DNA of 45,875 nt from an uncultured Prevotellaceae bacterium (GTDB lineage Bacteria; Bacteroidota; Bacteroidia; Bacteroidales; Bacteroidaceae). Below are positions 6,699-42,640 of this stretch, one piece after another. Every line of letters begins with the position of its first letter. Within the stretch, counting starts at the first letter, position 1. The DNA lies in the NCBI GenBank assembly GCA_900321835.1, contig ONXQ01000016.1, positions 1-45,875 on the forward strand, given 5' to 3'. A model generated the notes under the pieces. The model was not told the DNA's origin, made no database searches, and saw nothing but the letters and a program-made list of their open reading frames with translations. The translations under genes and the position numbers were made by a program.

Positions 6699-9398
<2,700 letters not shown>

Positions 9399-9597: not shown

Positions 9598-9656
9598 TCA
9601 AGGCTGTCGGACGCCAATCAGAAGGTCAAAACAGGTGAAAACGCACACTGACGTTC

Positions 9657-9744
9657 GTACCAGCGCAGTGGTACAAGTGTACCGGCACAGTGGTACAAAA
9701 GTTTCAGCGCATTGGTACAACTGTACCAACGCAGTGGTACAAAA
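9657..9744. repeat. array 2 of the 22-bp hairpin repeat (4 units)
   Basis: Four units starting at 9657, 9679, 9701 and 9723, exactly 22 bp apart. Units 1 and 4 have perfect GTACCA/TGGTAC arms with loops GCGCAG and ACGCAG. Unit 2 is GTACCG..TGGTAC and unit 3 TTTCA..TTGGTAC. A decayed fifth unit may follow to about 9766. The array begins 34 bp beyond the rlmH stop, upstream of valS. Confidence 0.9.
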
Positions 9745-9777
9745 ATTGGTACACGCTTTGTCACACACGGCTGTGGG

Positions 9778-15317: not shown

Positions 15318-16589
15318 TTATTCCTGAAAGTCGAAGTACCACCAATAGGTGCGGCCTTGTTCGTAGAGCGTCAAGTTGCGGCGCTGGCGCGGCGTGGAGA
15401 GGGTATCGACCATTGCGGCATAGTCATAGTAACGCTGGAGGGTGGCAGAGTCTGTCCATTGGGGGGCGATGATGGCGAGCGCTTCGCGATAGGCACGAGG
15501 CAAAGCGGCACGGATGTCATCAACACTATCGGCTACGGCGGGATAGTAGCGGGAAATCTCATCGACAAACTGCGGCAGATTCTTGTCGAGTAGCAGGGCG
15601 CAGAGACGATAGTCGGCCATGACTGACACTTGGCGGCGGAGAGCACGGACGACTTGGGCGTGCTGCTGCCGGATGCTGTCGGGCATGGTGGCCAGGGTGA
15701 TGCTGTCAAGAGAACAGAGCGAGTCGAGGTGAACCTGCTGCAAATGGAGACCTTCGAGCAGGAAACGGCCGACGGGCATGTCGAGCGCTGCTGTATGAAC
15801 ACCCAGACGTGCGGTAATGTCAGCAACAGTCAGTCGCTCTCGACGACTGACGGTGTCGGAAAGCACAAGCAATCCGTCGATTCCGTAGGGCTGGGGATAG
15901 AGAAACATTTGGTCAGGAAGTCTGCCCTGCCCCATCTGCGAAAGTGCAAAATGGCGAAGGTTGTTGAGACGGGGACTTGTGACGTCGGCTTCGATGCCCA
16001 CCTGGGCAGCCTCAGCATAGCGGCGTTCAAGGATTAGACGCTCCGTTTTGAGTTCGTAGAACCATACGTCGTCGGCCTTGTTCGTAAGCCCGCAGAAGAG
16101 CATCAGGACAAAGAGAATGAGATAGTTTGGCCAAAGGATGGAGGCCAGTGTATCTGCCGTCTGCTGGTGGATTGAAGCATATCTTACTCTCTTCAGAATC
16201 AACACGAGGCAAACCCAGCAGACAAACAGAAAGGGGAGCAGCCATGTCCAGGGGGCGAAGGTTTCGTCGCTGAAGCGTTCACGGCTCAAGTCAGTGAGGG
16301 CTGCGAGACAGAGGAAGGACGGGAAATAAGTGAGGGCATGGAACGAGGCGGGCACTTTCGTCAGCCATGCCACTAATAACTGCAGCAACTGAAGGCTGGC
16401 AGTGATGATGAGAGCGCCAACGAGATTGTCGTAATGGGTGATGCCGTGGGAATAGACGTATTGTGCCTCGGAGAGCAATTCACCCTGCATAAAGAAGATG
16501 TAGCAGAAGCAGAAAAGCAGAAACAGCAAACTACAGGAATAGCGGATGATTCCTGGAATTTGCTGCGAACGCTGGTTGTTATAGTTCAT
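15318..16589 (-). CDS. polytopic membrane protein with helical C-terminal half, unknown function
   Basis: A 423-residue protein. The first 170 residues contain about five hydrophobic segments, for example YSCSLLFLLFCFCYIFFMQG, LVGALIITASLQLLQLLVAW, WTWLLPFLFVCWVCLVLIL and ILWPNYLILFVLMLFCGL. The C-terminal 250 residues are soluble and helix-rich, with stretches reminiscent of tetratricopeptide helices (LILERRYAEAAQVGIEADVTS, broken by LNNLRHFALSQMGQGRLP). I do not recognise the family with confidence; comparable membrane-plus-TPR proteins of unknown function are known in Bacteroidales. It lies 15 bp after glgB and is likely co-transcribed with it and with yhcH. Nothing in it points to glycogen metabolism. 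Confidence 0.85.
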   Translation of the reverse strand: MNYNNQRSQQIPGIIRYSCSLLFLLFCFCYIFFMQGELLSEAQYVYSHGITHYDNLVGALIITASLQLLQLLVAWLTKVPASFHALTYFPSFLCLAALTDLSRERFSDETFAPWTWLLPFLFVCWVCLVLILKRVRYASIHQQTADTLASILWPNYLILFVLMLFCGLTNKADDVWFYELKTERLILERRYAEAAQVGIEADVTSPRLNNLRHFALSQMGQGRLPDQMFLYPQPYGIDGLLVLSDTVSRRERLTVADITARLGVHTAALDMPVGRFLLEGLHLQQVHLDSLCSLDSITLATMPDSIRQQHAQVVRALRRQVSVMADYRLCALLLDKNLPQFVDEISRYYPAVADSVDDIRAALPRAYREALAIIAPQWTDSATLQRYYDYAAMVDTLSTPRQRRNLTLYEQGRTYWWYFDFQE

Positions 16590-16604
16590 TGAGAATTCTG
16601 CGAT

Positions 16605-18626
16605 TTAATCCACCTTCTTCAATACCACCGCACTCCGAGCCGGGACATAGAGTTTGAGCCATCCCTTGTGGTCCTGGGCATAGATGGGGTCGAAGTTGGT
16701 GAAGTGGCGAACGGAGTCATCGGCGAGGTCGTGTCCGCCATAGAGGCTTGAGTCGGTGTTGAGGACGACTTCATAACTGCCTTCGGGGACGATGAAACCA
16801 TAGTCGGTGTACGAACGGTTGGGGCTGAAGTTGAACACGAAGAGCAAGTCGCCACGGCTATAGGCGAGAATCTGGTCGCCGTCGTTGTGCCATACCTCCT
16901 GTACGGGTGTCTTCTGGAAGTTCTTCTGGCCGCCAATCAGGTGAATCATCGCCACGTCGAAATCGCCGAGCCAATGGTAGCAAAGTTCGTGGTTATCGAC
17001 CAGGTTCCATTGACGACGTGCATACATGTGGCTCCATCCGTTGCCCTCGCGTGGGAAGTCAATCCATTCGGGGTGTCCGAACTCGTTGCCCATGAAGTTG
17101 AGATAGCCGCCGTTGATGGTCGATGCCGTGAGCAGACGAATCATCTTGTGGAGGGCGATGCCACGTTCGGCGGTGAAGTTCTCGTCACCCTTCTTGAAGT
17201 GCCAGTACATGTCGGCGTCGATGAGTCGAAAGACGATGGTCTTGTCGCCCACGAGTGCCTGGTCGTGGCTCTCGGCATAGGAGATGGTCTTCTCGTCCTT
17301 GCGGCGGTTGGTCACTTCCCAGAACATCGACGAGGGTTTCCAATCCTCGTCCTTGAGTTCCTTGATGGTCTTGATCCAATAGTCGGGGATGTTCATGGCC
17401 ATGCGGTAGTCGAATCCATAGCCGCCATCCTTGAAGGGTGCAGCCAATCCGGGCATTCCGCTCACTTCCTCGGCGATGGTGATGGCGTGGGGATGTACCT
17501 CGTGGATGAGCAAGTTGGCCAGTGTGAGATAGGCGATGGCCTCGTCGTCCTCATGGCCGTTGAAGTAGTCGCCGTATCCGCCGAAGGTTTCTCCAAGCCC
17601 ATGACTATAGTAGAGCATCGAGGTGACGCCGTCGAAGCGATAGCCGTCGAAGTGGAACTCGTCGAGCCAATACTTGCAGTTGGAGAGGAGGAAGTGGAGC
17701 ACCTCGTTCTTGCCATAGTCGAAGCAAAGGGAATCCCACGCGGGATGCTCACGGCGTCCGCCTTGCATGAAGTACTGGCAGGGGTCGCCGGCAAAGTTGC
17801 CGAGGCCTTCGACCTCGTTCTTCACGGCATGGCTATGCACAATGTCCATGATGACGGCAATGCCGTGCTGGTGAGCCGTATCGACCAGTTCCTTGAGTTC
17901 TTCGGGCGTGCCGAAACGGCTGCTGGGTGCAAAGAAGTTCGAGACATGGTAACCGAAACTCCCGTAGTAGGGATGCTCGGCGATGGCCATGATTTGGATG
18001 CAATTATATCCGTCGCGGATGACGCGCGGGAGCACGTTCTCCTGAAATTCGCGATAGGTGCCCACCTTCTCGGCGTCTTGTGCCATACCGATGTGGCATT
18101 CATAGATGAGCAGGGGGTTGGTGTTGGGGCGGAACGATTTCTTCTTCCAAACGTAGGGTTGCTCGGGTGCCCACACTTGTGCGGAGAAAATCTTGGTACG
18201 GTCGTCCTGAACGACACGTCGTGCCCATGCGGGGATGCGTTCGCCTTCCCCACCCTGCCAATGCACCTTCAACTTGTAGAGGTCGCCGTGTTTCATGGCA
18301 CGAGCAGGAAGTTTGATTTCCCAGTTACCGCTGTTTTTCAGGCGTTTCATGCGATACTTCTTGTCTTCGCGCCAATCATTGAAGTCGCCCACCACGTAGA
18401 TGTCTGTGGCATTAGGTGCCCACTCGCGCAGCACCCATCCCTTCTCCGTCTGATGAAGTCCGAAGTAGAGATAGCCGGTGGCAAAGTCGGAGAGCGTCTG
18501 GCGTCCGTTGTTGGTCAACTCGTTGAGTTTATAGAGTGCATGTTCGTGCCGTCCGCGGATGGCATCTTCGAAGGGTTCGAGCCAGGGGTCATTCTTCACG
18601 AGGCCGATGTGCTGGATTTTCTTCAT
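16605..18626 (-). CDS. glgB: 1,4-alpha-glucan branching enzyme (GH13, eukaryotic-like subfamily)
   Basis: A 673-residue cytoplasmic enzyme that makes alpha-1,6 branches in glycogen. An N-terminal CBM48/isoamylase-N-like domain (VLREWAPNATDIYVVGDFND, about 65-85) precedes the GH13 barrel. Catalytic elements are GYRFDGVTSML (nucleophile Asp about 330), IAEEVSGMPG (acid/base Glu about 387) and SHDQALVGD (transition-state Asp about 453). A C-terminal all-beta domain ends in VPARSAVVLKKVD. The motif set and length match the GH13_8 branching enzymes of eukaryotes and Bacteroidetes, not the longer E. coli-type GH13_9. No other glycogen gene is in the window, but the YhcH-type gene lies 40 bp upstream and the membrane protein 15 bp downstream. 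Confidence 0.95.
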   Translation of the reverse strand: MKKIQHIGLVKNDPWLEPFEDAIRGRHEHALYKLNELTNNGRQTLSDFATGYLYFGLHQTEKGWVLREWAPNATDIYVVGDFNDWREDKKYRMKRLKNSGNWEIKLPARAMKHGDLYKLKVHWQGGEGERIPAWARRVVQDDRTKIFSAQVWAPEQPYVWKKKSFRPNTNPLLIYECHIGMAQDAEKVGTYREFQENVLPRVIRDGYNCIQIMAIAEHPYYGSFGYHVSNFFAPSSRFGTPEELKELVDTAHQHGIAVIMDIVHSHAVKNEVEGLGNFAGDPCQYFMQGGRREHPAWDSLCFDYGKNEVLHFLLSNCKYWLDEFHFDGYRFDGVTSMLYYSHGLGETFGGYGDYFNGHEDDEAIAYLTLANLLIHEVHPHAITIAEEVSGMPGLAAPFKDGGYGFDYRMAMNIPDYWIKTIKELKDEDWKPSSMFWEVTNRRKDEKTISYAESHDQALVGDKTIVFRLIDADMYWHFKKGDENFTAERGIALHKMIRLLTASTINGGYLNFMGNEFGHPEWIDFPREGNGWSHMYARRQWNLVDNHELCYHWLGDFDVAMIHLIGGQKNFQKTPVQEVWHNDGDQILAYSRGDLLFVFNFSPNRSYTDYGFIVPEGSYEVVLNTDSSLYGGHDLADDSVRHFTNFDPIYAQDHKGWLKLYVPARSAVVLKKVD

Positions 18627-20424: not shown

Positions 20425-20542
20425 CACATTTCCTCCGTAATAAACAAACAATCGCGGCGCGAGCGCGTGTCCGCATCGTCGAGGCTGCGCGTATGGAAAA
20501 CCATCTTCCGCAATCCTTTGCAGGAGGTACAGACAAAGGTCA

Positions 20543-20652
20543 ATAGCACCGCAGTGGTACGAAAGTTTCACTGCGGTGGTACAAAAATTTCACCGCGGTG
20601 GTACAAGAATTTCACCGCGGTGGTACAGAAATACCATCGCGGTGAAATCATT
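20543..20652. repeat. array 3 of the 22-bp hairpin repeat (5 units)
   Basis: Units at 20543, 20565, 20587, 20609 and 20631, all exactly 22 bp. The core is CACCGCGGTGG in units 3 and 4, a longer GC palindrome than in the other arrays. Left arms are mostly TTTCA and right arms TGGTAC, while the last unit has ATACCA on the left and TGAAAT on the right, so some pairing is better between neighbouring units. It lies about 60 bp beyond the A2M stop in the 319-bp gap before the MORN gene. Confidence 0.9.
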
Positions 20653-20671
20653 GGGGTATTTGGCCCCCTTT

Positions 20672-20712: not shown

Positions 20713-23700
20713 TCATTCCCCCACCTCCATGTTTCCTCCGGCGCTGTGTCCGCTGAAGGCGGGGGTGTAGGCGCACTGGACGGTGGAGATGCCGAGGGAG
20801 TAGCGGCCGGCGGCTCGGGTGACATAGTAGTCGAGGTCGAGGGTCGAGGTGCCCTTGCGGAAGCGGTCGAAGAAGAGGTCGGCCGAGGCGTCATGCATGG
20901 CGAGGTAGGCGCCGCGTCCGCCGAGCCACTGGTAGCCGCTCGTCTGGCGGAGGGGTTCGAGGCAGGCGGAGTGCTGCGAGCGTACTTGCACGAAGTCCAT
21001 GTCGCGGTCGGAGGTGACGATGTTTCGGATGCGCACCTTGTCGCCTACGCGCAGGGGTGTGCCTTCGCCGAGGGGTTGCCACTCGCCGGGGGTTGTCTCG
21101 ATGTAGGTCTTTCGCTCGACGCGGAGTTCGCCTTCGGTCGCCTGGAAGCGGTCGAGGGATTCGAGGCACTGGCCGTAGAAGCATCCCCAGGAGATGGAGG
21201 GTGTCGTCTTGGTGACGGTGGCCGTGGTGGCGTCGATGAGGGTGTCGGGCACGGGGGTCTTGGAGTAGCCGACGGCGGCGGTTTGACCTGAAATCTCGAG
21301 TGGCTGGCCGGCGAACCTGACTTCGGGGAGTTGGGGCTCGTGGAAGGTTGTCTCGGGGTCGAGGCGCAGGAGGAGGTCGGCGACGGCAAGGGTGTTGAGG
21401 ACGTTGTCCCACTTCTGGGTTTGCTTCTGGCGGAGGAGCCACATCTGCATCTGCAGGAGGTCGTCCTTGCTGAGTTGGTCGGGGGTGTCTGCCCCACTCT
21501 CGCGCTCGAGGCAGGTCATGAAGGCTTGCATGGCGGCCAGGTGGGTGGGTATGCGGTAGTCGCACCAGGAGTATTGTGCCTTGTCGGTGTCGAAGTAGCG
21601 TCCCATGCCGGGGCGTGTGACGGTGTATTCGTGGAGCGACTGGACGAAGCGTCGGGCGTAGGCGTCGCGGTGGTCGTCGTAGAGGATGACGGCGACGTTG
21701 GCGCGTCCGTACATCGAGAGGTCGGCGACACGTCGCTGGGTCTTGTCGAGGTAGAAGCGCTTCATGGCGTCGATGTCGGCGCTGCCCTTCAGGGCTTCGG
21801 GCACGAGGGTGCGGAGGTAGAGGTAGCGGAAGGTGGATTCGGTGGGAAGTCCTCGCTTGTCCTTCTTGCCGTACTTGTTGTAGTACTCGAGTTCCTCGCG
21901 GTCGAGGTAGCGGAGGCTCTTCTTGAGCATGGCGAGCACGTCGCGGTCTTCCTCGTCTTGCGAACGGAGGTAGCGGAGGAGGTTGGCCATGTGTTCGCTC
22001 ACGCTCAGGGTGATGTAGTAGGAGGGTTCCATGCCTTGGAACCACGACCATCCGCCGTCGGCGAATTGCTTTTCGGCGAGTTTCTTCTTGGCGGCGGCGA
22101 TGCGACGGTCGAGCAGTCGCTGGTCGAAGAGTTCGCAAAGCGTGTGGCGTTGAGCCGTCTCGTCCTGTGCGTCGAGCATCCAGGGCGATTCCTGGAGGAG
22201 GATTTCGCGGAGTTCCTGGTTCTTCTCAAGTTCGCTCGTGAGGGTGGTTTCCGTGCCTTCCTCGGCGTTCCATCGCATGATGAGTTCGAGCAGGCGCGGC
22301 ATACGCTTGGCGATGCTCTGGGCGACGCGGTTGGCATAGAGCGAGGCCGACCATGACACCATGTCGTCGTTCTCGGGGAGGATGACGGTGTGGAGGGCGA
22401 GGATGGCTTGCCACGAAGGGTTGTCGGTGTATTCGAAGGTCATGCGGCGCTGTGTGGCCGTCGTGCTGTGACGGTTGAAGAGGGACGAGAGGTCGATGTC
22501 GGCAGTGCCGGCTCCGTCGATGTAGAAGGGGACGGTTTCGGTGACATAGCGCTTGGAGGAGAGGACGGGGAGGAAGTTGCGCTCGCCGTCGCTGAAGAGG
22601 CCCGACGTTCCGCTGATTTCGCAAACGAGCATGGGGTACTCTTCGGGCACGTCGTAGTCGAACGTGACGCTCGAGGTGTTGCCTGCCCCCACTTGGAAGG
22701 GTCGCTTCTGGGTCATGACCACGGCGTCGTTCTCAGGATTGATGAGCCGCATGAGTGCCTCGCCGCTCAGGTCGTTCTCCGACGTGTTGATGATCTTGGC
22801 GGCGATGGTGAGGCGGTCGTTCTGACGCACGAAACGCGGCATGTTGGGTTGCACCATGAACTCCTTGCGAGCCACGGCCGTGCCTTCCAGGTGCCCGTAT
22901 TCGATGCCGGCGGTGTGTGCCAGCGAGAGTACGCGCCACTCGGTGAGGCAATCGGGAAGTGTGAACGAGATGCTGACGTTGCCCTCCTTGTCGGTGCGGA
23001 GATTGGGTTCGAAGAAAGCCGTCTCGTTGAAGTTCTCGCGGAGTTGGGGCGCAGGTGCGTTGGGTTCAGCCTTTTCGTCGTCGTCACCTCCGGCCACGCC
23101 CGGCGTGGGCATCGCCTCGTCCGTCTCCTCCGCATCGGCCATCATCGCGGTGGCTTCTTCCACACGCGCCATCTTCATCAGGGCACGCGACTCGAGCGGA
23201 CGTCCTGCGGCGGCTCCGAGCATATTGCTGTACACGAGGCGCTCCATGCCATAGCGGCTGCTATAGTCGTCAAAGGCACGCAATTCGTTGTACGCACGGC
23301 TATACACTGAGGGATATTCGGGACGGAACGGAAGGCTGAGCGAGGGAACGCTTCCAAGATGGCTCAACGTGCTATACACCGAGGGGATGTAGCGCGAGAA
23401 ATAGAGGGAGAAGGGCCATGCGTGACGTACGAAATAGTCGAGCGAGGCGTCGTACATCGTAGCCATCACGCTGGCAGGTACGGGCTTTCCATTCTTATCG
23501 ACGACACGGAGCGTCCATGTCTCGCGTTGGCCGGGGGTCAACTTGTCGCGGAAGGTCGTCCATGCCATCTTCAACTCCTTCTCAGGCTTCACGAGATAGA
23601 AGGTCTCTGCGATTTCGTGCTGACGTCCGTCCTTGACGTATGCCAGATAGAAGCGCATTCCTTCGCCATATTCCTCCTTATAGTCGAGGCGGAAGTGTTG

Positions 23701-26532
23701 TTGGGTGGGTTGGAGCACTGCCACCTTTTCGACCACCACATTGCGGTTATCGACGATGTAGAGATAGGTGTGGGCATCGGGCTTCTCGACCGCATACCAC
23801 ACATCGACACTCTTGCCCGGCTCGAGCACACGGGTGGAGGCGTGAATCCAGTCCTTCGCCAGGTTCATACGTCCGCCACGCTTCGAATCCCAAAGCACAA
23901 ACGTCGTGCTCGACGTGATGCGATGACCGTGTGTGTCGGTGGCTTCGGCACCGAGTTGATAGGCACCGAGTTCGGAACCTTGCAGCGAGGGAAGGTCGAT
24001 GGGCGTGTCGGCGACGAAACTCCCCGACGCCACGTCGATGTCATATTTCGACGTCTGCTGATTGTACTTGCGGAGCGTCCACGTGCCGGAGGCATCCACC
24101 TTCTGACCCTGTGCGTTGACGGCCTTCACCCGCCATTCCGTCTTCTTCGTGTCGGCACGATCCACGAGGTCGTTGCCTTCGACATCGAGCGAGAAGTCGC
24201 GCGCAGTGATGCGGACGGTCGTTTCGTCCTCATGCGTCTCGCCCGCAAGGTCGGTCACCTTCGCCTCCACACGGAATTTCATCATGCCGTAGTAGTCGGT
24301 CAGCACATAGCGGCCGTTCACTCTCTCCACGCGTGCACCCATGTCGGTCGAGTTGCGCACCATGTCGTCGTCGAGGAACACCTTCACGCGGAAGCGTCCC
24401 TCGTCGTCGGTCACGGTTTCGCCCTCCTCGGCCGTCTGCCATTCGTCACGGTCGTACCACCTGTACCACGAGGTGCTCTTGGCCATGCTCACCTTGAAGA
24501 CGACTTTGGCATTCTGAACGGGCACACCGCTATAGGTCTTTGCCACGCCCGTCACCTCGATGGTGTCGCCGAGGGCAAAACGTCCTTGCGTCTCCTCCAT
24601 TTCGAGGGTGAACGTCGGACGCTTGTATTCCTCGACACGGAAGTCGATGTCCGTTCGTCCGAACTCGATGTGCCAACATCCCGTGAGACGGTCGGTGGGA
24701 AGGACAAACTCGGTCGATGCCGCACCAAACTCATCGCTCTTCACCATCGCCTTCTGAATCACTTGCCAGTTGGCATCGCGCAGCGTGATGGCAAACTCCA
24801 CACCTTCGACCGCATGGATGCTCTCACCCAAACGCGTGTAGGCAAAGCCCGACACCTTGACCGTCTGACCGGGGCGATAGATGGCACGGTCGGTGAAGGC
24901 CTGGTAGATGGTTTGCTCGTATGCTTTCGACGGACGGAACTGAATTTCGCCGTTCACATCGACCAGCATCGTCTCGTCGTCCGCTGTTCCTCGTGCCGCT
25001 ACGCGGTCAATCTCAGGGTCGAGCACGACTTGACCTCGGGCATCACTTTCGTAGGTCTTCGAGAAGGTGAGCCACTTGCCGTTCACGTATTTTCCCCAAA
25101 GGCCAATGACCTCGCATCCCGCCTTCGGTGCGCCGCTCATGGCATCGACGACCGTGGCCAGACGACGTCCGCCAGGCATCGACACGGTCATCACCTGAAG
25201 CGTGGAGAGTTGGAAGTCGGATTTCGATTCCAGATTACTTCCCCGCAAATAGATGCGGAAACAACCGGCGGGAAGGCTCAACGCCAACGTGTCGTACTGC
25301 ATTTCCTCGGCAAGTTCGGGATGCTGCTTGTGGGCGTCGAACGAGAGGTGTTGCGTCCACACGGTTCCCACCTCCTTCATGTCCTCCGACTTTTGGTTAC
25401 AAAGCAACAAATCGGTCAACTTTCCTTTCGGACGAAGGCGCACCACCACAAGTTCGGCCTCATCGACATTTCGGTGCGACACCTTCACCATGAGCGGCTT
25501 GCCGGCTATCTCCGTTCCGCTTCCATCTTCCGGCTTCACATAAACCGAAAGGCTCGGAGCCAGACATTCCATCTCACGACGACGGAAATAATCCTTGATA
25601 TCGCTCTCCGGCCAACGGCGCATGGCTTCGCGCGCCAGTTCGAGTTCCTCTTGCCAGGTCGTCTGCTTCTTCTCGTTCACCCATCGGCGGAACACGTCGG
25701 CTCCCACCTCCGAGTCTTGCATCTCGTCGAGCAACGTCTTCAGCGCCTCCTCGTAATCATCGTCGTGCAGACGCAGGCGATAACTGCCGAGCAAGTTCTG
25801 CGACTGAAGTTCGCGCATACGCATCAGGGCATACGCCTCGCGCATCCCCTTTTCCTTATACACCGTGGCACAAAGCCCGTACAAGCGCCATTCCTCCTCT
25901 TTGTTCAAGAACGATTCATCGTCGAAGAAATCGACCACGAGCGAGAGGGCATCGTCGTGATAGAAACGGCTATCCTTGCCCACTTCCTCCATCAACGGTC
26001 GGCAATCCGCCACCGACACACCGGCGATTTCGCTCGCCCTTGCCGTGGCTGCCTTGATGTGTTCAGCCTTCCGACGGTTGCTCACGTCCAACGTCTCCTC
26101 GTCGCTCAACGTCAGGCTCGTGTATCGCCATTCGTGATACACACTCGCCGCCAGGGCATGGAGCATCGCCACCTCCGCCCAATCGCGGGGCGACGTGGCA
26201 CGTGCCTCACGTTCGCGGATGCGTGCCTCCAGTTGCTCAACGTCAATCACCATGCTATCGGGCGAAATGCTTCCGCGCATGGCCATCAACGTCAATCCGG
26301 CACGAGCCATCTGACCGAAGTTTCCCTCGTCCGAGGCTTTCTTGTAGATTTTCTCCGTCTCCTTGATGGCGGATTTGGGCAGGTCGTCGTTGATGTGTTG
26401 CTCGACCTTCGCCCAACTCTTGTCGTAACTGGTCTTAAAAATGTTCATGTCTTCCTGGTTTTGTGCAAAAGTAACTGCCGACACCAGTAGCAAACTCCAT
26501 GCCAGCATCAATCGTCGTAGGTCCATAATCAT
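20713..26532 (-). CDS. alpha-2-macroglobulin family protein without thioester motif
   Basis: A 1,939-residue exported protein (signal peptide around LMLAWSLLLVSAVTFA, then QNQED). After a helical N-terminal part of about 330 residues come macroglobulin beta domains, including FTDRAIYRPGQTVKVSGFAY near 545. An acidic linker (ADAEETDEAMPTPGVAGGDD) leads into LRENFNETAFFEPNLRTDKE near 1167, and then NMPRFVRQNDRLTIAAKI. The helical domain that normally carries the Cys-Gln thioester starts near 1390. There the sequence reads ILPENDDMVSWSASLYANRV, with no CxEQ, so it cannot trap targets covalently by the classical route. Bacterial A2Ms are periplasmic protease traps, usually partnered with PBP1c, which is absent here. 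Start may be 26532 or 26526. Confidence 0.92.
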   Translation of the reverse strand: MIMDLRRLMLAWSLLLVSAVTFAQNQEDMNIFKTSYDKSWAKVEQHINDDLPKSAIKETEKIYKKASDEGNFGQMARAGLTLMAMRGSISPDSMVIDVEQLEARIREREARATSPRDWAEVAMLHALAASVYHEWRYTSLTLSDEETLDVSNRRKAEHIKAATARASEIAGVSVADCRPLMEEVGKDSRFYHDDALSLVVDFFDDESFLNKEEEWRLYGLCATVYKEKGMREAYALMRMRELQSQNLLGSYRLRLHDDDYEEALKTLLDEMQDSEVGADVFRRWVNEKKQTTWQEELELAREAMRRWPESDIKDYFRRREMECLAPSLSVYVKPEDGSGTEIAGKPLMVKVSHRNVDEAELVVVRLRPKGKLTDLLLCNQKSEDMKEVGTVWTQHLSFDAHKQHPELAEEMQYDTLALSLPAGCFRIYLRGSNLESKSDFQLSTLQVMTVSMPGGRRLATVVDAMSGAPKAGCEVIGLWGKYVNGKWLTFSKTYESDARGQVVLDPEIDRVAARGTADDETMLVDVNGEIQFRPSKAYEQTIYQAFTDRAIYRPGQTVKVSGFAYTRLGESIHAVEGVEFAITLRDANWQVIQKAMVKSDEFGAASTEFVLPTDRLTGCWHIEFGRTDIDFRVEEYKRPTFTLEMEETQGRFALGDTIEVTGVAKTYSGVPVQNAKVVFKVSMAKSTSWYRWYDRDEWQTAEEGETVTDDEGRFRVKVFLDDDMVRNSTDMGARVERVNGRYVLTDYYGMMKFRVEAKVTDLAGETHEDETTVRITARDFSLDVEGNDLVDRADTKKTEWRVKAVNAQGQKVDASGTWTLRKYNQQTSKYDIDVASGSFVADTPIDLPSLQGSELGAYQLGAEATDTHGHRITSSTTFVLWDSKRGGRMNLAKDWIHASTRVLEPGKSVDVWYAVEKPDAHTYLYIVDNRNVVVEKVAVLQPTQQHFRLDYKEEYGEGMRFYLAYVKDGRQHEIAETFYLVKPEKELKMAWTTFRDKLTPGQRETWTLRVVDKNGKPVPASVMATMYDASLDYFVRHAWPFSLYFSRYIPSVYSTLSHLGSVPSLSLPFRPEYPSVYSRAYNELRAFDDYSSRYGMERLVYSNMLGAAAGRPLESRALMKMARVEEATAMMADAEETDEAMPTPGVAGGDDDEKAEPNAPAPQLRENFNETAFFEPNLRTDKEGNVSISFTLPDCLTEWRVLSLAHTAGIEYGHLEGTAVARKEFMVQPNMPRFVRQNDRLTIAAKIINTSENDLSGEALMRLINPENDAVVMTQKRPFQVGAGNTSSVTFDYDVPEEYPMLVCEISGTSGLFSDGERNFLPVLSSKRYVTETVPFYIDGAGTADIDLSSLFNRHSTTATQRRMTFEYTDNPSWQAILALHTVILPENDDMVSWSASLYANRVAQSIAKRMPRLLELIMRWNAEEGTETTLTSELEKNQELREILLQESPWMLDAQDETAQRHTLCELFDQRLLDRRIAAAKKKLAEKQFADGGWSWFQGMEPSYYITLSVSEHMANLLRYLRSQDEEDRDVLAMLKKSLRYLDREELEYYNKYGKKDKRGLPTESTFRYLYLRTLVPEALKGSADIDAMKRFYLDKTQRRVADLSMYGRANVAVILYDDHRDAYARRFVQSLHEYTVTRPGMGRYFDTDKAQYSWCDYRIPTHLAAMQAFMTCLERESGADTPDQLSKDDLLQMQMWLLRQKQTQKWDNVLNTLAVADLLLRLDPETTFHEPQLPEVRFAGQPLEISGQTAAVGYSKTPVPDTLIDATTATVTKTTPSISWGCFYGQCLESLDRFQATEGELRVERKTYIETTPGEWQPLGEGTPLRVGDKVRIRNIVTSDRDMDFVQVRSQHSACLEPLRQTSGYQWLGGRGAYLAMHDASADLFFDRFRKGTSTLDLDYYVTRAAGRYSLGISTVQCAYTPAFSGHSAGGNMEVGE

Positions 26533-26573: not shown

Positions 26574-26604
26574 CAAAGGTAAAATTTTACATTCAGCCGA
26601 CAAA
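26574..26604 (-). promoter_or_regulatory. promoter of the A2M gene
   Basis: Minus-strand TACCTTTG (26581-26574) with TTTG (26604-26601) 19 bp upstream is a perfect Bacteroidota promoter. The leader to the ATG is about 40 nt. Confidence 0.82.
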
Positions 26605-26705: not shown

Positions 26706-26815
26706 ACCCGAGCGCTTGGACGAAAACGTCTGAGCGCTCAGAAATTTTCGTCCGAGCGCTCAGACGTTTTTTTCCGAGCGCTCACACCTTACGCACGTGC
26801 GCGTGAGACATTTTA
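26706..26815. repeat. array 6: 22-bp-period repeat with GAGCGCTC core
   Basis: GAGCGCT(C/T) occurs at 26710, 26732, 26754 and 26776, spaced exactly 22 bp, and a decayed fifth unit (CACGTGCGCGTG) follows in register. The best units read GTCTGA-GCGC-TCAGA and GTCCGA-GCGC-TCAGAC, so each is a palindrome with an A/T-rich linker. Sequence differs from arrays 1-5 but period and layout agree. It lies between the divergent A2M and 5'-nucleotidase promoters in a 398-bp intergenic region. The rest of that region is AT-rich and holds only the two promoters. Confidence 0.85.
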
Positions 26816-26878: not shown

Positions 26879-26909
26879 TTTGTTTTTTGCACACTTAATC
26901 GTAAATTTG
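26879..26909 (+). promoter_or_regulatory. promoter of the 5'-nucleotidase/miaA operon
   Basis: TTTG (26879-26882) and TAAATTTG (26902-26909) are separated by exactly 19 bp, matching the consensus. The ATG is at 26931, giving a leader of roughly 15 nt. A similar T-rich TTGCAC string lies about 40 bp further upstream. Confidence 0.8.
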
Positions 26910-26930: not shown

Positions 26931-28613
26931 ATGGACACGCGCAAAGTTAACATCATCTTCACGACCGACATACACGGCAACTATTTCCCCTTCGACTTCC
27001 GGCACGACCGGTGGGGCAAGGGAAGTATGCAACGTGTTCATGCCTACGTGGCTCAACAGGTGAAACGACTGGGCGGAGCGACCATCCTCATCGACGGCGG
27101 CGACATGCTGCAGGGCGAACCGACATCGTACTATTATAACTTTGTCAACCGGGGTGAGCGTCACAAGGTGGCCGACATGTGCAACTTCGTGGGGTACGAC
27201 ATCGGCGTCGTAGGCAACCACGACATCGAGACGGGCCACGACGTGTTCGACCGTTTCGTGGACGATTGCACGTTTCCGATTCTCGGCGCCAATGCCGTGG
27301 ACGAGGAAACGGGCGAACCCTATTTCGAGCCTTACACTATCCTTGTGCGGAGCGGCATACGCATCGCCGTCATCGGCTTCACGACACCCGCAGTTCCCCA
27401 TTGGATTCCACGCCGCGTGTGGTCGGGCATCCGTTTCGAGGACATTCGCGAGAGTGCCGAACGGTGGGTGAAATTTGTTCGCGAACATGAGCATCCCGAC
27501 TTTGTGGTAGGCCTTTTCCACTCGGGCATGGACGAGGGCATCGTGACACCCGAATACCGAGAAAATGCCGTCCGCGAGACGGTGAGCCAAGTGGAGGGTT
27601 TCGACCTCGTGCTCTATGGCCACGACCACTCGTCGAACATGGAGGAGGTGGAGGCTCCCGACGGACGCAGCGTCATGTGCATCAACCCTGGAAGTTATGC
27701 CCACAGCGTGGCCGAGGTGCGACTGAAGTTCTCGCTCGATGCCGAGGGACACGTCCAGAAGTACGACATGGACGCCCAACTCCGCTACATCGGCACCATC
27801 CACAACAGCCATGCCGTCGAGTTCCGCCGCCATTTCAAGCGTGATTATGCCGACGTCCAAGCCTACGCCTCGCGACACATCGGCCATTTCCTCGCCGGCA
27901 TCGACATCACAGACGCCTATTTCGGTTCGTCGGCATACATCGACTTTATTCAGACGCTCCAACTCTCCGTCTCCCATGCCGACCTCTCACTGGCTGCTCC
28001 GCTCTTCTTCAACGCGAGCATCGACGAGGGCGACGTGAAGGTGAGCGACCTCTTCAACCTCTATCGTTTCGAGGACAAACTCTACACCCTTCGCCTCACC
28101 GGACGTGAAATCAAAAACTACCTGGAGATGAGTTACGCCAACTGGACAAACCAAATGCGCTCGGCCGACGACAACCTCTTGTTGCTCAGCCCCATGAAGA
28201 GCAATCCCGAACGCATGGGATTCACCAACTTCATCTTCAACTTCGACTCGATGGCAGGCCTTCGCTACACGGTTGATGTCCGCAAACCGACGGGCGAGAA
28301 AGTGTGCATAGAGTCGATGGCCGACGGCTCTCCGTTCGATTTCAACCGCGGTTACAGTGTGGCCATGACGGCGTATCGTGCCAACGGCGGTGGGGAACTC
28401 CTGACGAAGGGAGCCGGCCTTACGAAGGAAGAAATCGACCGCCGCATCCTCGACATCACACCTCGCGACATTCGCCACTACATGATGGAGTATATCGAAC
28501 ACCAGGGCAACGTGCGTCCCCAAGCCCTCCACCATTGGCGGTTCGTCCCCGAAGATTGGGTGAAGGCGGCCGAGGAACGCGAGCGGAAACTATTGTTTGG
28601 AAAAAAGAAATGA
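26931..28613 (+). CDS. metallophosphatase / 5'-nucleotidase family protein
   Basis: A 560-residue two-domain protein. The N-terminal calcineurin-like metallophosphoesterase domain has the metal ligands in order: FTTDIHGNYF (about 9-18), LIDGGDMLQG (about 57-66), VVGNHDIETG (about 94-103) and VLYGHDHSSN (about 226-235). The C-terminal half is the 5'-nucleotidase substrate domain (for example YRFEDKLYTLRLTGREIKNY, and FNRGYSVAMTAYRANGGGEL). Such proteins hydrolyse nucleotides or UDP-sugars and are usually exported, but no signal peptide is present here, so this one appears cytoplasmic. Start MDTRKVNIIF at 26931 follows a canonical promoter. Its stop overlaps the miaA start by 4 bp, implying coupling. 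Confidence 0.92.
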   Translation: MDTRKVNIIFTTDIHGNYFPFDFRHDRWGKGSMQRVHAYVAQQVKRLGGATILIDGGDMLQGEPTSYYYNFVNRGERHKVADMCNFVGYDIGVVGNHDIETGHDVFDRFVDDCTFPILGANAVDEETGEPYFEPYTILVRSGIRIAVIGFTTPAVPHWIPRRVWSGIRFEDIRESAERWVKFVREHEHPDFVVGLFHSGMDEGIVTPEYRENAVRETVSQVEGFDLVLYGHDHSSNMEEVEAPDGRSVMCINPGSYAHSVAEVRLKFSLDAEGHVQKYDMDAQLRYIGTIHNSHAVEFRRHFKRDYADVQAYASRHIGHFLAGIDITDAYFGSSAYIDFIQTLQLSVSHADLSLAAPLFFNASIDEGDVKVSDLFNLYRFEDKLYTLRLTGREIKNYLEMSYANWTNQMRSADDNLLLLSPMKSNPERMGFTNFIFNFDSMAGLRYTVDVRKPTGEKVCIESMADGSPFDFNRGYSVAMTAYRANGGGELLTKGAGLTKEEIDRRILDITPRDIRHYMMEYIEHQGNVRPQALHHWRFVPEDWVKAAEERERKLLFGKKK

Positions 28614-29468: not shown

Positions 29469-30200
29469 GTGTACTGGTTTGCTTTCATAGGCAATAGCCT
29501 TATCTTAAAGAAGAACGGAGAGCACTACGAAGTGCCGCAAGGCGAAGTACCACCCACACCGACACACACGGGCGGGTTGGCCGAGGGGTTGACCACGATG
29601 GAACTTCGTGCCTCCTACAACGTGCTTCCCTACCCCCTTCATAACATGGCCGGGAAAGGCGCAGAATTGCTCTATTGGGATAGCAACACACGCTATTGCG
29701 GACATTGCGGGGCACCGATGGAGCGTTCGACCGACATTTCCAAACGATGCACGAATTGCGGCAAGGAGGTGTGGCCACAAGTGGCACCTGCCATCATTGT
29801 ACGCATCCTGAAAAAGGCTATAACAGATACTGAAGGGGACATCCTTGAACCTGAGAAAATCCTCCTTGTCCATGCCCGCAACTTCCGTCATGCTGACCGC
29901 TACGGCCTTGTGGCAGGTTTTGTGGAAACAGGTGAGACACTGGAGCAGTGTGTCGAACGCGAGGTAATGGAGGAAACACACCTGCGCATCACAAATCTCC
30001 GTTATTTCGGCTCACAACCCTGGCCCTACCCCAGCGGCATCATGATTGGCTTTACCGCCGATTACGATAGCGGTGAATTGCATTTGCAAGACGAGGAACT
30101 CAGCCGCGGAGGATGGTTCGACCGCAACCACCTTCCCGAGATTCCCGACAAGATGTCCATAGCCCGAAAGTTGATTGATGATTGGATTCTCAGAAGATAA
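29469..30200 (+). CDS. nudC: NAD(+) diphosphatase (NudC-type Nudix hydrolase)
   Basis: A 243-residue protein. A zinc ribbon (CGHCG and CTNCG, Cys at about 77, 80, 94 and 97) precedes a Nudix box, GFVETGETLEQCVEREVMEE, with intact REVMEE. The NudC-specific SQPWPYPSGIMIGF follows. NudC cleaves NAD(H) to NMN(H) and AMP and also removes NAD caps from RNA; that is known for the E. coli protein and inferred here. The N-terminal domain is short (MYWFAFIGNSLIL). The start codon is GTG at 29469; no ATG upstream in frame gives a better start. The 3' end overlaps the convergent exported-protein gene by 11 bp. Confidence 0.92.
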   Translation: MYWFAFIGNSLILKKNGEHYEVPQGEVPPTPTHTGGLAEGLTTMELRASYNVLPYPLHNMAGKGAELLYWDSNTRYCGHCGAPMERSTDISKRCTNCGKEVWPQVAPAIIVRILKKAITDTEGDILEPEKILLVHARNFRHADRYGLVAGFVETGETLEQCVEREVMEETHLRITNLRYFGSQPWPYPSGIMIGFTADYDSGELHLQDEELSRGGWFDRNHLPEIPDKMSIARKLIDDWILRR

Positions 30201-31104
30201 AATAATACCAACTCAGACTCTTACAATATGCTGTGGCAATGTCGCTAACAGCCTTGATGCGATATTTTTCCAATTCCACTTCATTTTTACTGGCTCGTTC
30301 GTATGCTGCTAATTCTCGTGCGGCTTCAGCATCTCGCGTTTTCTTGATTTGTTGACATAATGCCCTTGCCTCATTTCCGCTACTACTCAACGGATCAACT
30401 AGACTCAAACGTTCCGACGCTTCAGTGTAATTACCAATTGCATATGCAGCCCGTGCCTGTTGCATCAGTTGAGAGGCACAATCATTCTGATATTGTCTGT
30501 AAACATTTTTGATAGCAGCACTTACCGAAGAGTAACCAGCAAGTGATGTTGGATAGGAACACAACAAAGTGAGTGCTTCATCGTAACGTTTCATGGCGAC
30601 CATGCTATTTGCTTGCTGAACAATGCTGTTCGTGTTGCTCTGGTAGTAATTCTCTATCTTCGCTTTCGCTGTACTGATGAACATGCCGATACGCCCGTCG
30701 TCCGAACGCAGTTTCCCTACTGCATTCCTTACAGCGTCATCTAAGGATTGTCCCTCACCACGAAGCTCAAGGGTTACGCTATTGAACACAGTATTGGTTA
30801 GTAGTTGCTGCGCCACTAAATTCAACTGTATATCCATAACAGTAATGTTTCGCATTCCACTTTCCACAATCTGCTCATTAATGACACTGATTTCTGGACA
30901 TACAACAATACAACTATACTCGGCAGATGCTACTCCACTCCGTGTCATGGCACCGAGAAGTTTACCACGAATGATACGATACGTATTTATACTGATGTCG
31001 GGACGTTGTTGCGGAACTACAATAGCCATTTCAACCCGATTCTGAGCCTCAAGGCTCAAGCAGGCAACCAAGAGGAAAAAAGACAAGAAAATTCTGTATT
31101 TCAT
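30190..31104 (-). CDS. exported protein of unknown function, last gene of CsgG-like operon
   Basis: A 304-residue protein with a signal peptide (MKYRIFLSFFLLVACLSLEA, then QNR). The first domain (about 20-150) has VVCPEISVINEQIVESGMRN and VTLELRGEGQSLDDAVRNAV, the latter resembling LPP20/FlgT-N-like segments. Residues 150-290 are helical, with repeated Ala-rich helices (QLMQQARAAYAIGNYTEASE) like TPR helices. I do not recognise the family. It is the fourth gene of a closely packed minus-strand operon of exported proteins (9-bp gap to the previous gene), so it probably works with the CsgG-like and DUF6175-like products in the cell envelope. Base composition is more AT-rich than the flanking housekeeping genes. 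Confidence 0.82.
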   Translation of the reverse strand: MKYRIFLSFFLLVACLSLEAQNRVEMAIVVPQQRPDISINTYRIIRGKLLGAMTRSGVASAEYSCIVVCPEISVINEQIVESGMRNITVMDIQLNLVAQQLLTNTVFNSVTLELRGEGQSLDDAVRNAVGKLRSDDGRIGMFISTAKAKIENYYQSNTNSIVQQANSMVAMKRYDEALTLLCSYPTSLAGYSSVSAAIKNVYRQYQNDCASQLMQQARAAYAIGNYTEASERLSLVDPLSSSGNEARALCQQIKKTRDAEAARELAAYERASKNEVELEKYRIKAVSDIATAYCKSLSWYYFIF

Positions 31105-31113
31105 GGTTTGATA

Positions 31114-32010
31114 CTATTTAATTGTGACAACAAGCATGTTGTTACTGGTAGTACGTTCAATCCTGATACCCATTTGCCGGAAGAATGCCATCATCTTCAG
31201 TCCGAACTTATTAACATTGTATGTACGCCCTTTCTCATCCCTCAAAGGAATGCGTACGTCATCAAAAATCATCTGGCGGTCAGTTGTTCCTTGAATATGA
31301 TAGTTACTTTTGAACGCATTTTCCTCCATCCACAATTCTAACTCATCCGCAAGGGTGTAGCCATTATTTCCCACTTCACTCGACATGAGGTAGGAAGAGC
31401 CAGTATCTATACCGATAGTAATGCTGATGGACTGACCATTGGCAACAATGTCACCAAACTTTGACTGAATCACATCAAGAAAACCGTCCATACAAGTTTC
31501 CACACTTTTGGATGTCAACTTGCCATAGTCATCCGTATAGAACTTTCCACTTTCACCGACTGTGTTAGACAGTGCGTTTCCTGTCGAAGACTCGTATGCA
31601 GTTAAGAGGGTCTTGACTGCATTGCCCGTAGGAGATTCCAATAAATCAATCTCGGCTTCGACATATACGTCTGCCCCCGACTGCTGTATGATGGCAGTTT
31701 TGTAGTCTTGCTGCTGATCCACTCCAAGGCCGCTTGCTGTTGACAGAGCACGTACACGTCCGAGAAAATCGACGGTTGTGAAACCACGCAAGTCAAAGGC
31801 TTCCTTTATTTTGGTCAAGGCAACGCGTTTATTAACGTCATTCTCCAAAACAGTGCGGATGTCTTCCCCCTGTTTCGTAAAAGGGATCACCATGATTTTC
31901 GGCTTATGCTGAACTATAGAGACAGCTTCAACGGTTGCACTCAAATCTTGCGCATTAACAATGAGAATACACGTCATTAATGATATGGTGCTTATGATTC
32001 TCTTCATCAT
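31114..32010 (-). CDS. exported DUF6175-like protein
   Basis: A 298-residue protein with a signal peptide (RIISTISLMTCILIVNA, then QDL). Conserved-looking parts are HKPKIMVIPFTKQGEDIRTV, LTKIKEAFDLRGFTTVDFLG and the C-terminal GLKMMAFFRQMGIRIERTTS. I associate it with the Bacteroidales DUF6175 family, moderately sure. The opening, a beta strand IMVIPF followed by an alpha-helical R(V/I)ALTKIKEAF, resembles the CsgG-type nucleotide-binding-like fold of the upstream gene. Two consecutive ATGs (32010, 32007) are possible starts. It abuts the stop of the CsgG-like gene without a gap, so translation is probably coupled. A role in an outer-membrane assembly is inferred from context alone. Confidence 0.83.
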   Translation of the reverse strand: MMKRIISTISLMTCILIVNAQDLSATVEAVSIVQHKPKIMVIPFTKQGEDIRTVLENDVNKRVALTKIKEAFDLRGFTTVDFLGRVRALSTASGLGVDQQQDYKTAIIQQSGADVYVEAEIDLLESPTGNAVKTLLTAYESSTGNALSNTVGESGKFYTDDYGKLTSKSVETCMDGFLDVIQSKFGDIVANGQSISITIGIDTGSSYLMSSEVGNNGYTLADELELWMEENAFKSNYHIQGTTDRQMIFDDVRIPLRDEKGRTYNVNKFGLKMMAFFRQMGIRIERTTSNNMLVVTIK

Positions 32011-32838
32011 TTACTTGCTTTTTTTAATTAATAAACTACAACGTACCTTTGCTTTGGCTGACAGTTTTTCCAAAATCACCTTAGCAGTCTTTCCAGAAAC
32101 ATCCGCTTCGGAAAAAGATTCGCCAGCCAGTTTCTTAACCTTTGCTTCACCAATGCTTGTGGGATAAGGCTTTCCTCCTATTATTTCGACAGACTCTATT
32201 ACAAACTTGTCTCCCACCTTCACACCTTGTTCCTTTCCTGCGGCAATCAATACGGTATTGTTGTCTATACACCGTTCAAGCACAGCCGTCAATGGAAAAT
32301 TCACGCGAAAGTATTCATGGATTTGCGACTGAAGCGACTGCATCGCCATCGTTACCGCCGACTCTGGCGATAAGCATTCCTTGCTGGCTTTTCCTTCAAA
32401 ACTTGTTGCTTCACTACTGGTGCCTGTCTCCACATCAACAATCTTCATTTGAAAGGCTACGCTGCCCTTAAACCCTCTTATGCTGCCATTTGAGTTATGA
32501 ATGGCATAGACGGGAATTTTTACAATATGCCCTGTTATCATTTTCTCTGCCGCCAGTGCCGAATACTGGTCTGCCAAATTTTTACTGTCAAGAAAAGCCT
32601 CGCTCTTCTGCAATTCCAATTCGGCCTCCACCTTGTCACGGCTAGTACGGTCAACGACACGAAAGCGATGTGTGTCAGTCAACATCTCCACAACCTTTTC
32701 TGTCACTAATCCCGTGAATGGGCTGTCTATATCGTCGCTCGTAAACTGAGCCACGCCAACAACAGGGCGAGTATCTGCTTGCGCATAGCAAACTATGCTA
32801 CACGCAAGCAGAATAGAAGTAACAACAGACTTTTTCAT
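32011..32838 (-). CDS. CsgG/HfaB-like exported protein
   Basis: A 275-residue protein with a signal peptide (MKKSVVTSILLACSIVCYA, then QAD). The N-terminal domain is CsgG-like: RPVVGVAQFTSDDIDSPFTG, then LVTEKVVEMLTDTHRFRVVD and a region reading ADQYSALAAEKMITGHIVKI. The C-terminal part (about 195-250) contains AAGKEQGVKVGDKFVIESVE, similar to the small beta-barrel domain of FlgT-type proteins. CsgG-family proteins form oligomeric outer-membrane secretion pores or rings. No lipobox Cys is clear: the signal ends CYAQ, so lipidation is uncertain. It lies 3 bp after the coiled-coil gene and directly abuts the DUF6175-like gene. No curli subunit gene is in the window. Confidence 0.87.
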   Translation of the reverse strand: MKKSVVTSILLACSIVCYAQADTRPVVGVAQFTSDDIDSPFTGLVTEKVVEMLTDTHRFRVVDRTSRDKVEAELELQKSEAFLDSKNLADQYSALAAEKMITGHIVKIPVYAIHNSNGSIRGFKGSVAFQMKIVDVETGTSSEATSFEGKASKECLSPESAVTMAMQSLQSQIHEYFRVNFPLTAVLERCIDNNTVLIAAGKEQGVKVGDKFVIESVEIIGGKPYPTSIGEAKVKKLAGESFSEADVSGKTAKVILEKLSAKAKVRCSLLIKKSK

Positions 32839-32841
32839 AGA

Positions 32842-33423
32842 TTAAAGGTTCTTGCCAGTCTTCAATGTCTCAATAATGTCTTTAACGGCTTTGGCTTGAC
32901 TCGCAGACTCTGTTGCAATAATAGGGAGAGCATCCTTTCCGAATGTTATAATAGCACCTGCACCTTTTGCATTCTTGGCTATCTTTCCCTTTTTGAGCGG
33001 ATTACTTTCGGCTTTTAACTGCTCTTCCAAAACTTGAAGTTGTTTGATGGCGGCTTCTGCACTTTCTTCTGCTTTCTTTAAGGATGCCACTTCACCTGCA
33101 ATGGAAGTCGAAAGGGTCATCCACTCTTCAAGTGTAGGCTTCTTAATCGTAACGTCTGTTACGCCATCCTTTGTCTCACCAATCTGACGATAGTAGAAAT
33201 TACTCAATTGTTCACTGTTTGAAATCGATAGAGCAGCCGCATTTTTGACAGACTCTGCGTACTTGTCTAAATCAGAAATTCCTGTGGATTTCGGCGAGTT
33301 ATCCACCAATTTCTGCAGTTCGGCTACTCGTTTTTCACTCTGCTGGATGTCATCCTTCGTCTGAGCATTTCCAGCCACTACCAATGCCATCATAGCGATG
33401 GCGGTCAATAAAACTTTTTTCAT
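32842..33423 (-). CDS. exported coiled-coil protein, first gene of CsgG-like operon
   Basis: A 193-residue protein with a signal peptide (MKKVLLTAIAMMALVVAGNA, then QTK). The mature part is predominantly helical with heptad-like patterns, IQQSEKRVAELQKLVDNSP near the N-terminus and SLKKAEESAEAAIKQLQVLE in the middle. A Gly/Ala-rich stretch (KIAKNAKGAGAIITFGKDAL) follows, and it ends with a helix (AKAVKDIIETLKTGKNL). No family recognised. The start at 33423 gives the signal peptide; the frame upstream to 33498 lies in the apparently structured leader. As the promoter-proximal gene, it is likely to be the most abundant product of the operon and could be a structural or secreted component. That is speculation. 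Confidence 0.83.
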   Translation of the reverse strand: MKKVLLTAIAMMALVVAGNAQTKDDIQQSEKRVAELQKLVDNSPKSTGISDLDKYAESVKNAAALSISNSEQLSNFYYRQIGETKDGVTDVTIKKPTLEEWMTLSTSIAGEVASLKKAEESAEAAIKQLQVLEEQLKAESNPLKKGKIAKNAKGAGAIITFGKDALPIIATESASQAKAVKDIIETLKTGKNL

Positions 33424-33826
33424 ATTACGAAAAGTTTTAAGTATCCGCAAGATACCCAGATTCGGACAATGATTATAGAAGATTTTTTCCGACTGCATAA
33501 AAAGAAAGCGGGGTATCTGGCCTCTGCTTGTTCAAACTATTAGGTTGTCGGATACCTTCCAAATAAACAAACAGAATTGACACCCACGCCGTTGGTATGT
33601 GGCCTATATCCCGCAAAGTGTGCGTGAGGACAAATGTCCTCTGCACACTCACGGACAAGTCATATACCGCGTCCGTAGTGCCTACCTCTGCCATGTTCTT
33701 GATTTGGATTATTGAGTTTCCGACATTCAATAGTTTCAAAAACAAAGCGTTAGCAAACACTTTCTCTAATATGTAGTTTCTCAACCAAATATAATATCTT
33801 TGATAACATACTGATTGAGATTGTTG
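33424..33826 (-). ncRNA. candidate structured 5' leader or ncRNA of the CsgG-like operon
   Basis: About 400 nt separate a -7 box (33827-33834) from the first start codon. Three helices are visible. One is a strong interrupted hairpin at 33611-33654 (GTGTGC/GCACAC and GAGGACA/TGTCCTC arms). The second is GGTATC (33512-33517) with GATACC (33551-33556). The third is a small hairpin at 33441-33455 just before the ATG. An alternative 8-bp pairing, 33450-33457 (AGATACCC) with 33511-33518 (GGGTATCT), would exclude both of the last two, as in an attenuator or riboswitch. It could instead be an independent small RNA. No known RNA family was recognised. Confidence 0.5.
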
Positions 33827-33834
33827 CAAAGGTA
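33827..33834 (-). promoter_or_regulatory. -7 box of the CsgG-like operon or leader RNA
   Basis: TACCTTTG on the minus strand (33834-33827) matches the consensus. The -33 region is A-rich on the plus strand (T-rich on the minus) without a clear TTTG at 19-20 bp. Confidence 0.6.
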
Positions 33835-33986
33835 CACAAAAAAAACAAAAATCACCATTGGTATTAGTAGAAAAAATGATAAAATTAAGTTTTTTTCACA
33901 AAGAAACATTAACTGAGGAAAATTGTTCCTGAGATGGTTAATAGGGGATTTCCCCGACACATTAGGAATATCACCCCAAAAGTTTA

Positions 33987-34028
33987 GGCAAAAATGTTAA
34001 AGTTTTTGCCTTTTTTGTTATAACTTTG
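33987..34028 (+). promoter_or_regulatory. inverted repeat GGCAAAAA/TTTTTGCC and -7 box of the glycine-zipper gene
   Basis: GGCAAAAA (33987-33994) and TTTTTGCC (34003-34010) are perfect inverted repeats 8 nt apart, followed by TTTTTTG, then the -7 box TAACTTTG (34021-34028), 30 nt before the ATG at 34059. The hairpin with its T-run could be a terminator or an operator lying over the promoter. A further hairpin, GGGGATTTCCCC, lies near 33946-33957. The remaining sequence from 33835 is AT-rich with no gene seen. Confidence 0.55.
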
Positions 34029-34765: not shown

Positions 34766-34875
34766 AACGCACTGCCGTGTGCCGAAAGTACCGGCGCTGT
34801 GGTACGGTTTTTTCAGCGCAGTGAAACTTTTGTACCAGCGCAGTGGTACAACTGTACCAACGCAGTGGAATTTTT
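34766..34875. repeat. array 4 of the 22-bp hairpin repeat (5 units)
   Basis: Units at 34766, 34788, 34810, 34832 and 34854, all 22 bp. Unit 1 has changed arms (GCAC-TGCCGT-GTGC), unit 2 GTACCG/TGGTAC and unit 3 TTTCA-GCGCAG-TGAAA, again with both arms altered in concert. Unit 4 has GTACCA/TGGTAC and unit 5 GTACCA/TGGAAT. It begins 30 bp after the stop of the glycine-zipper gene in the 333-bp gap before pyrB. Confidence 0.9.
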
Positions 34876-35035
34876 TTGGTACGGAACAAATCTTCTCCCT
34901 GAAGGGCATTACAGTTCGTAGTGCCCTTTTCTTTTGGCAATCATATAGAGGCTTCCACAAACGTTCTTCTAATTATGTGCTCGGCAAAAAATGAAAGATT
35001 TTTCCTTTTTTGCGCTCACTTACGCAGATTTTTTG

Positions 35036-42513: not shown

Positions 42514-42552
42514 AGCAAAAACTTTCAAACTCCGACACGCCGTACCAAAAAA

Positions 42553-42640
42553 GTTTCACCACTTTGGTACAAAAGTACCAACGCAGTGGTACGAACGTAC
42601 CGGCGCAGTGAAAACTTCATACCAGCGCAGTGGTACGACC
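42553..42640. repeat. array 5 of the 22-bp hairpin repeat (4 units)
   Basis: Units at 42553, 42575, 42597 and 42619, exactly 22 bp apart. Unit 2 has perfect GTACCA/TGGTAC arms. The others have TTTCA/TTGGTAC, GTACCG/TGAAAA and ATACCA/TGGTAC. A decayed unit with GTACC precedes it at 42531-42552. It occupies the divergent gap between the TrmH-family gene and tamL. Confidence 0.9.

Follow-up and report, generated by a model that had tools for sequence, protein, structure and literature searches.

A four-core palindromic array in a divergent gene gap belongs to a dispersed class of intergenic arrays that share a 22-bp frame and differ in sequence

The window analyzed here is a 45,875-nucleotide stretch of DNA that makes up contig C59 of G000, a draft genome of 2.38 Mb. 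It contains an alpha-2-macroglobulin family gene (MG2, A2M, bMG10) on the minus strand at 20713–26532 and, divergent from it, a 5'-nucleotidase/metallophosphatase gene on the plus strand at 26931–28613. A Bacteroidota-type promoter-like consensus, TTTG-N-TANNTTTG, is matched for the former gene at 26574–26604 on the minus strand (TTTG / TACCTTTG) and for the latter at 26879–26909 on the plus strand (TTTG / TAAATTTG). Nearly midway between these divergent matches, and outside both predicted transcripts, lies a tandem array at 26711–26782 on the plus strand. The first-pass annotation had noted four copies of GAGCGCT exactly 22 bp apart, and all four positions (26710, 26732, 26754 and 26776) were confirmed. 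The AGCGCT cores occupy 26711–26716, 26733–26738, 26755–26760 and 26777–26782. They are separated, on the same strand, by spacer 1 (26717–26732, TGGACG-AAAA-CGTCTG, A4 linker at 26723–26726), spacer 2 (26739–26754, CAGAAA-TTTT-CGTCCG, T4 linker at 26745–26748) and spacer 3 (26761–26776, CAGACG-TTTT-TTTCCG, T4 linker at 26767–26770). The arms thus follow the CGTCTG/CAGACG type and the linkers are A4 or T4, in agreement with the earlier statement that they differ from the GTACCA arms found elsewhere and are joined by A/T. The last core is followed on the plus strand by an end module at 26783–26805 (CACACCTTACGCACGTGCGCGTG), the local version of a recurrent tail, CAGACCTTTACGCGCGCGCG. The four-unit pattern, with up to three mismatches allowed, was found at one place in the window, matched on both strands, and shuffled sequences are expected to yield 0.00 such matches. 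These shuffles and the period counts in the window and in a 396-kb sample (below) rule out a chance origin. Elsewhere in the window, positions 30001–34000 have a G+C content of 0.42–0.44 compared with about 0.55 for the remainder, possibly an acquired segment.

A singleton reading of the array was also ruled out. The unit pair AGCGCT-N16-AGCGCT (at most one mismatch) occurs 195 times in G000 versus 5 times for a control, and a directional pattern places the element, designated F2, at about 50 dispersed sites. Among 47 arrays extracted from the genome, 43 have exactly four AGCGCT cores and then a recurrent end module, which refutes the proposal of a decayed fifth unit. Of the 47, L016 and one array in L078 proved to be members of a sister AAGYRCTT family and were excluded from later statistics. 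The left end, AGCGCTTGGA, is present in nearly all copies, with TTGGA as the oriented left end. The right end after core 4 is CTCAGACCTTTACGCGCGCG or CTCAGACGTATATAG (elsewhere given as CCTTTACGCGCG / GTATATAG); in the 47 extracted arrays it reads CAGACCTTTACGCGCGCG or CAGACGTATATAG. The element is about 90 bp long, or about 105 bp when counted with its fixed ends, and copies have a mean pairwise identity of 82%. Its linkers are AAAA (47), TTTT (47) and few others, such that 94 of 126 are exactly one or the other, and of the 111 linkers made of A and T alone a single one contains a TpA step, where independent columns would give 70. Of 42 copies, 39 have a spacer 2 made up of an A-type half and a G-type half (22.4 expected), in either order, and this spacer is found in both orientations relative to the element ends. 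Adjacent bases change as blocks (AAAA/TTTT, AA/CG).

F2 is one of several such families. Hundreds of short palindrome clusters with a 22-bp repeat and several unrelated sequences lie between the genes of G000. No period but 22 has array regions at six places of the window, the F2 array being one of them; the other five (724–841, 9650–9748, 20534–20654, 34792–34879 and 42543–42635, no strand assigned, all with a period of 22) are of the GTACCA type (F1, GTACCA-NNGCNN-TGGTAC), of which G000 has 145 sites. We surveyed ungapped self-similarity regions at periods from 10 to 80 in a 396-kb sample of G000, not the whole genome. The sample contained 54 regions at period 22, 39 at 44 and 9 at 66, with 0–5 at every other period. 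By reading, the period-22 regions were assigned to F1, F2, F3 (AAGTGCTT) and F4 (TTTCGTCYGCRGACGAAA), with two left unclassified; F1+F4 hybrids, in which two families stand in register, account for four regions. The first-pass annotation had proposed that the period is constant while the sequence varies, a view that would have failed had no 22-bp peak existed outside the GTACCA family. With 54 regions and at least four families in 396 kb the peak exists, and the proposal gains further support from arrays of other sequence in relatives. Because some congeners use 21 bp, we infer that what is constant is a spacing of two helical turns and not 22 bp as such. Curvature from A-tracts was set aside as a general principle, since the F1 linkers (by reading) and those of an array family in a second genome, G009, are not A-tracts.

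Relatives were searched for palindromic arrays irrespective of sequence, a check suggested at the outset, and 21- or 22-bp arrays of other sequence were found. Dyad-scored arrays in all sampled groups numbered 51 at period 22 (38 in G000), 12 at 21, 6 at 18 and 4 at 14, and no period other than 21 and 22 exceeded 6. Period-22 regions of other sequence occur in other congeners and in G023, which represents a single further genus and has 14 regions in 40 kb; the 21-bp period was seen in G002 and G004, and G007 has both 21 and 22. F2 itself matched 109 times in G000 versus 0–6 times in other relatives. In G007, F2 is found mainly inside a tract 98–99% identical to G000, which probably reflects recent exchange or assembly mixing. 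At one pair of loci (L237:690–850 in G007 and L188:13195–13400 in G000) the array has three versus five cores between nearly identical flanks, the nearby DNA being about 99% identical; this is a recent change and shows that unit number is not rigid. G009 carries AAGYRCTT pairs (386 and 384 strand matches), and its spacer 2, like that of F2, pairs an A-type with a G-type half in 47 of 51 cases (about 25 expected). Several further arrays were observed. In G010, palindromic arrays have a period of 18, unlike those of congeners (L255:227–318, 15767–15901 and 16463–16633). A MAG titled Streptococcaceae has 12 AGCGCT/AACGCT cores in one array with a 22-bp period (L136:3532–3790). Eight mutually similar viral contigs (L172, L173, L174, L176, L177, L179, L182 and L184) contain GGAGCGCTCC at 22-bp spacing, with coding status unchecked. 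Promoter regions about 100 bp long at L187:7177–7297 and 7488–7589 match many places in G009 and are dispersed and strongly conserved. The pattern scan of GTDB genomes brought up chance or coding repeats along with true relatives, and no phylogenetic range was drawn from it.

The divergent gap orthologous to that of the F2 array in the window was read letter by letter in G009 (L300). It contains CCAAGCACTTGG...AAGCACTT..., again with four cores at 22 bp, the core being AGCACT instead of AGCGCT, and the array starts where the window has CCGAGCGCTTGG, adjoining alignable flanking DNA. Other syntenic G009 loci were judged by coordinates only. By that measure, four-core arrays at C96:61222, C96:71473 and C11:11480 occupy gaps orthologous to those of the G000 arrays at C130:14003, C130:23754 and C130:29562, respectively; the last of these already has the AAGTGCTT-type core, and only the arms differ from G009. 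The remaining F2 loci in the syntenic stretches gave no strict four-core match in G009, and at C11:19088–19114 only 28 bp are left and the array is absent. The probability of the positional coincidence varies between about 0.009 and 0.17 with the choice of gaps regarded as available. Because this is modest evidence, L300 carries most weight. The window locus has no array in G007, G002, G011 or G004 (L301, L302, L303 and L305), and since several loci lack one in relatives the array is not essential at each site. In another gap orthologous to a G000 F2 array, G007 has a 21-bp array, AAATATCA/TGATATTT, within a long inverted repeat (GGAGCGCGGAATGAACTCAAAATATCA and its complement; L329:848–941). 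The four compared gaps, three of them by coordinates, suggest that spacing and position matter more than letters; the place of an array and its number of units are, like the period, mostly retained.

These data bear on whether the arrays are non-autonomous mobile elements of MITE or REP/BIME type, with a body of about 105 bp, fixed ends, a transposase acting in trans and any protein binding secondary. We consider this possible, though not the likelier account, and have no data on target-site duplications. The dispersed copies with recurrent ends (TTGGA at the left), their 82% identity, the species-specific abundance and the apparent empty sites (G007 at the window locus and G009 C11:19088–19114) are all as expected of such an element, and a Y1 (IS200-type) transposase gene adjoins a sister-family array in G000. 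However, by reading that gene has its own flanking palindromes, no Y1 match was found in the array-rich drafts of G009 (87% complete) and G023 (95% complete), and the different unit that G009 has at corresponding loci is not accounted for by transposition alone. The absence of Y1 is provisional, since for both G009 and G000 the draft is only 87% complete. The array beside the IS200-like gene has nine AAGYRCTT-type cores (array and gene at L016:1171–1353 and L016:1481–1960).

Known systems resemble the arrays in part. The 22-bp iterons of plasmid origins are tandem protein-binding sites with about two-turn spacing, few per replicon and located at an origin, whereas the G000 arrays occupy many gene gaps spread along the chromosome. 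REP/BIME sequences with their RAYT transposases (enterobacteria, Pseudomonas and Stenotrophomonas; PMC2817692, PMC3686654) are likewise abundant extragenic imperfect palindromes (more than 100 copies per genome) that form regularly spaced and hybrid clusters, in species-specific classes that switch between relatives. The G000 arrays differ in sharing a fixed 22-bp frame, 4-bp linkers and mostly four units across unrelated sequences, and in that at orthologous places the class is exchanged in the arrays and not merely in the rayt flanks. In addition, no cognate Y1 (IS200/IS605-like) transposase flanked by the same palindromes was found in the G000, G009 and G023 drafts, and the GTAG/GTGG tetranucleotide was not noticed on reading the F2 and G009 units, for which no search was made. 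RAYT/REP is not supported as the sole explanation, given the lack of Y1 in G009 and G023 and the separate palindromes of the L016 gene. The BrickBuilt MITE, described in Porphyromonas gingivalis only, has a single unit family with 1 to 22.8 copies of a 23-nt unit, long leader and tail segments and terminal inverted repeats (PMC4596501). It too is a dispersed intergenic sequence of Bacteroidales with tandem units of about two helical turns and conserved end segments, but the G000 arrays comprise several families and have a period of 22, mostly four units and short ends. We found no earlier report of 22-bp palindromic intergenic arrays in Bacteroidota in the open-access literature.

All family-assigned arrays are intergenic, and one of the two unclassified regions touches gene calls, which come from a simple codon-usage caller with approximate start positions. 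Classified F2 copies fall in divergent gaps in 19 of 41 cases versus 27 of 123 background gaps of at least 120 bp (Fisher P 0.004). The first-pass annotation had emphasized two divergent promoters; the promoter-like matches on both sides stand, but the divergent setting is enriched and not required, as tandem and convergent gaps also hold arrays. Many of these latter copies lie just past stop codons, and arrays in tandem gaps tend to lie closer to the end of the upstream gene. Such copies, together with a long hairpin predicted with DNA parameters on either strand (z about −7.5 to −7.8), are what one would expect if transcript hairpins served as terminators or mRNA stabilizers at gene ends. 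We regard an RNA-level role as improbable nonetheless, because of the copies in divergent gaps, the position of the window array outside both predicted transcripts and the A4/T4 linkers that swap strand freely. Furthermore, dyad-arm mismatches show no strand bias of the GU type (48 GT versus 50 CA), the arms of one core do not covary, and no compensation within copies is seen. The folding energy of real copies (−28.4) is no better than after reshuffling spacers between copies (−29.0) and worse than after reshuffling half-spacers (−30.3), which argues against selection for single-stranded structure. Despite the predicted hairpin, selection for an RNA or ssDNA hairpin is thus not supported. Rfam gave no family at the gathering score, and the sub-threshold hits were mostly to miRNA models that fit any long hairpin. 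Neutral minisatellites, whose 22-bp period would be only mutational and arise by replication slippage or quasi-palindrome template switching, could account for the five versus three cores in near-identical DNA, the block changes and the two orientations of the central spacer, but are hard to credit given one period across unrelated sequences, mostly four units, linkers nearly devoid of TpA, and intergenic restriction with retention at orthologous positions.

We favor the reading that these are double-stranded, BIME-like protein-binding arrays with concerted sequence turnover, and give it a probability of roughly one half by analogy, without binding data or an identified protein. BIMEs of E. 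coli bind gyrase, IHF and Pol I (PMC2817692). The near-absence of TpA from the linkers was counted in its favor, as it is a strand-independent property of the double strand; dispersal, period, the usual four cores, intergenic position and the unit-switched locus L300 are likewise observed. A genome-wide class of intergenic elements of about 90 bp would place typically four near-palindromic sites every two helical turns between transcription units. Each 18-bp dyad would take one protein dimer, with adjacent dimers on one helix face, and the unit sequence would turn over in concert, leaving other families, and other species at one locus, with other units in an unchanged 22-bp frame. The bound protein and its cooperativity are inferred, as is a role at operon boundaries, where the arrays may act as a supercoil sink, roadblock or insulator; all that is said about function rests on inference. 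A mobile origin would not conflict with the binding-array reading, and mobility is also its main rival.

More speculatively, and in our view doubtfully, some gene boundaries may be marked by two-turn phased dyads that are read by a fast-evolving trans-acting DNA-binding protein. Its specificity would drift and units would be replaced in concert at fixed positions, so that the letters change and frame and place persist, a possible bacterial analogue of the co-evolution of satellites and their binding proteins. If the binding-array reading is true, the chromosome would have an architecture recognizable by its geometry, with dyads usually in fours, two turns apart and at gene boundaries, and not by sequence, and homology searches would therefore miss it. 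A locus at which two species differ in the unit would then be a natural experiment on what maintains the arrays: a protein, a transposase or DNA mechanics.
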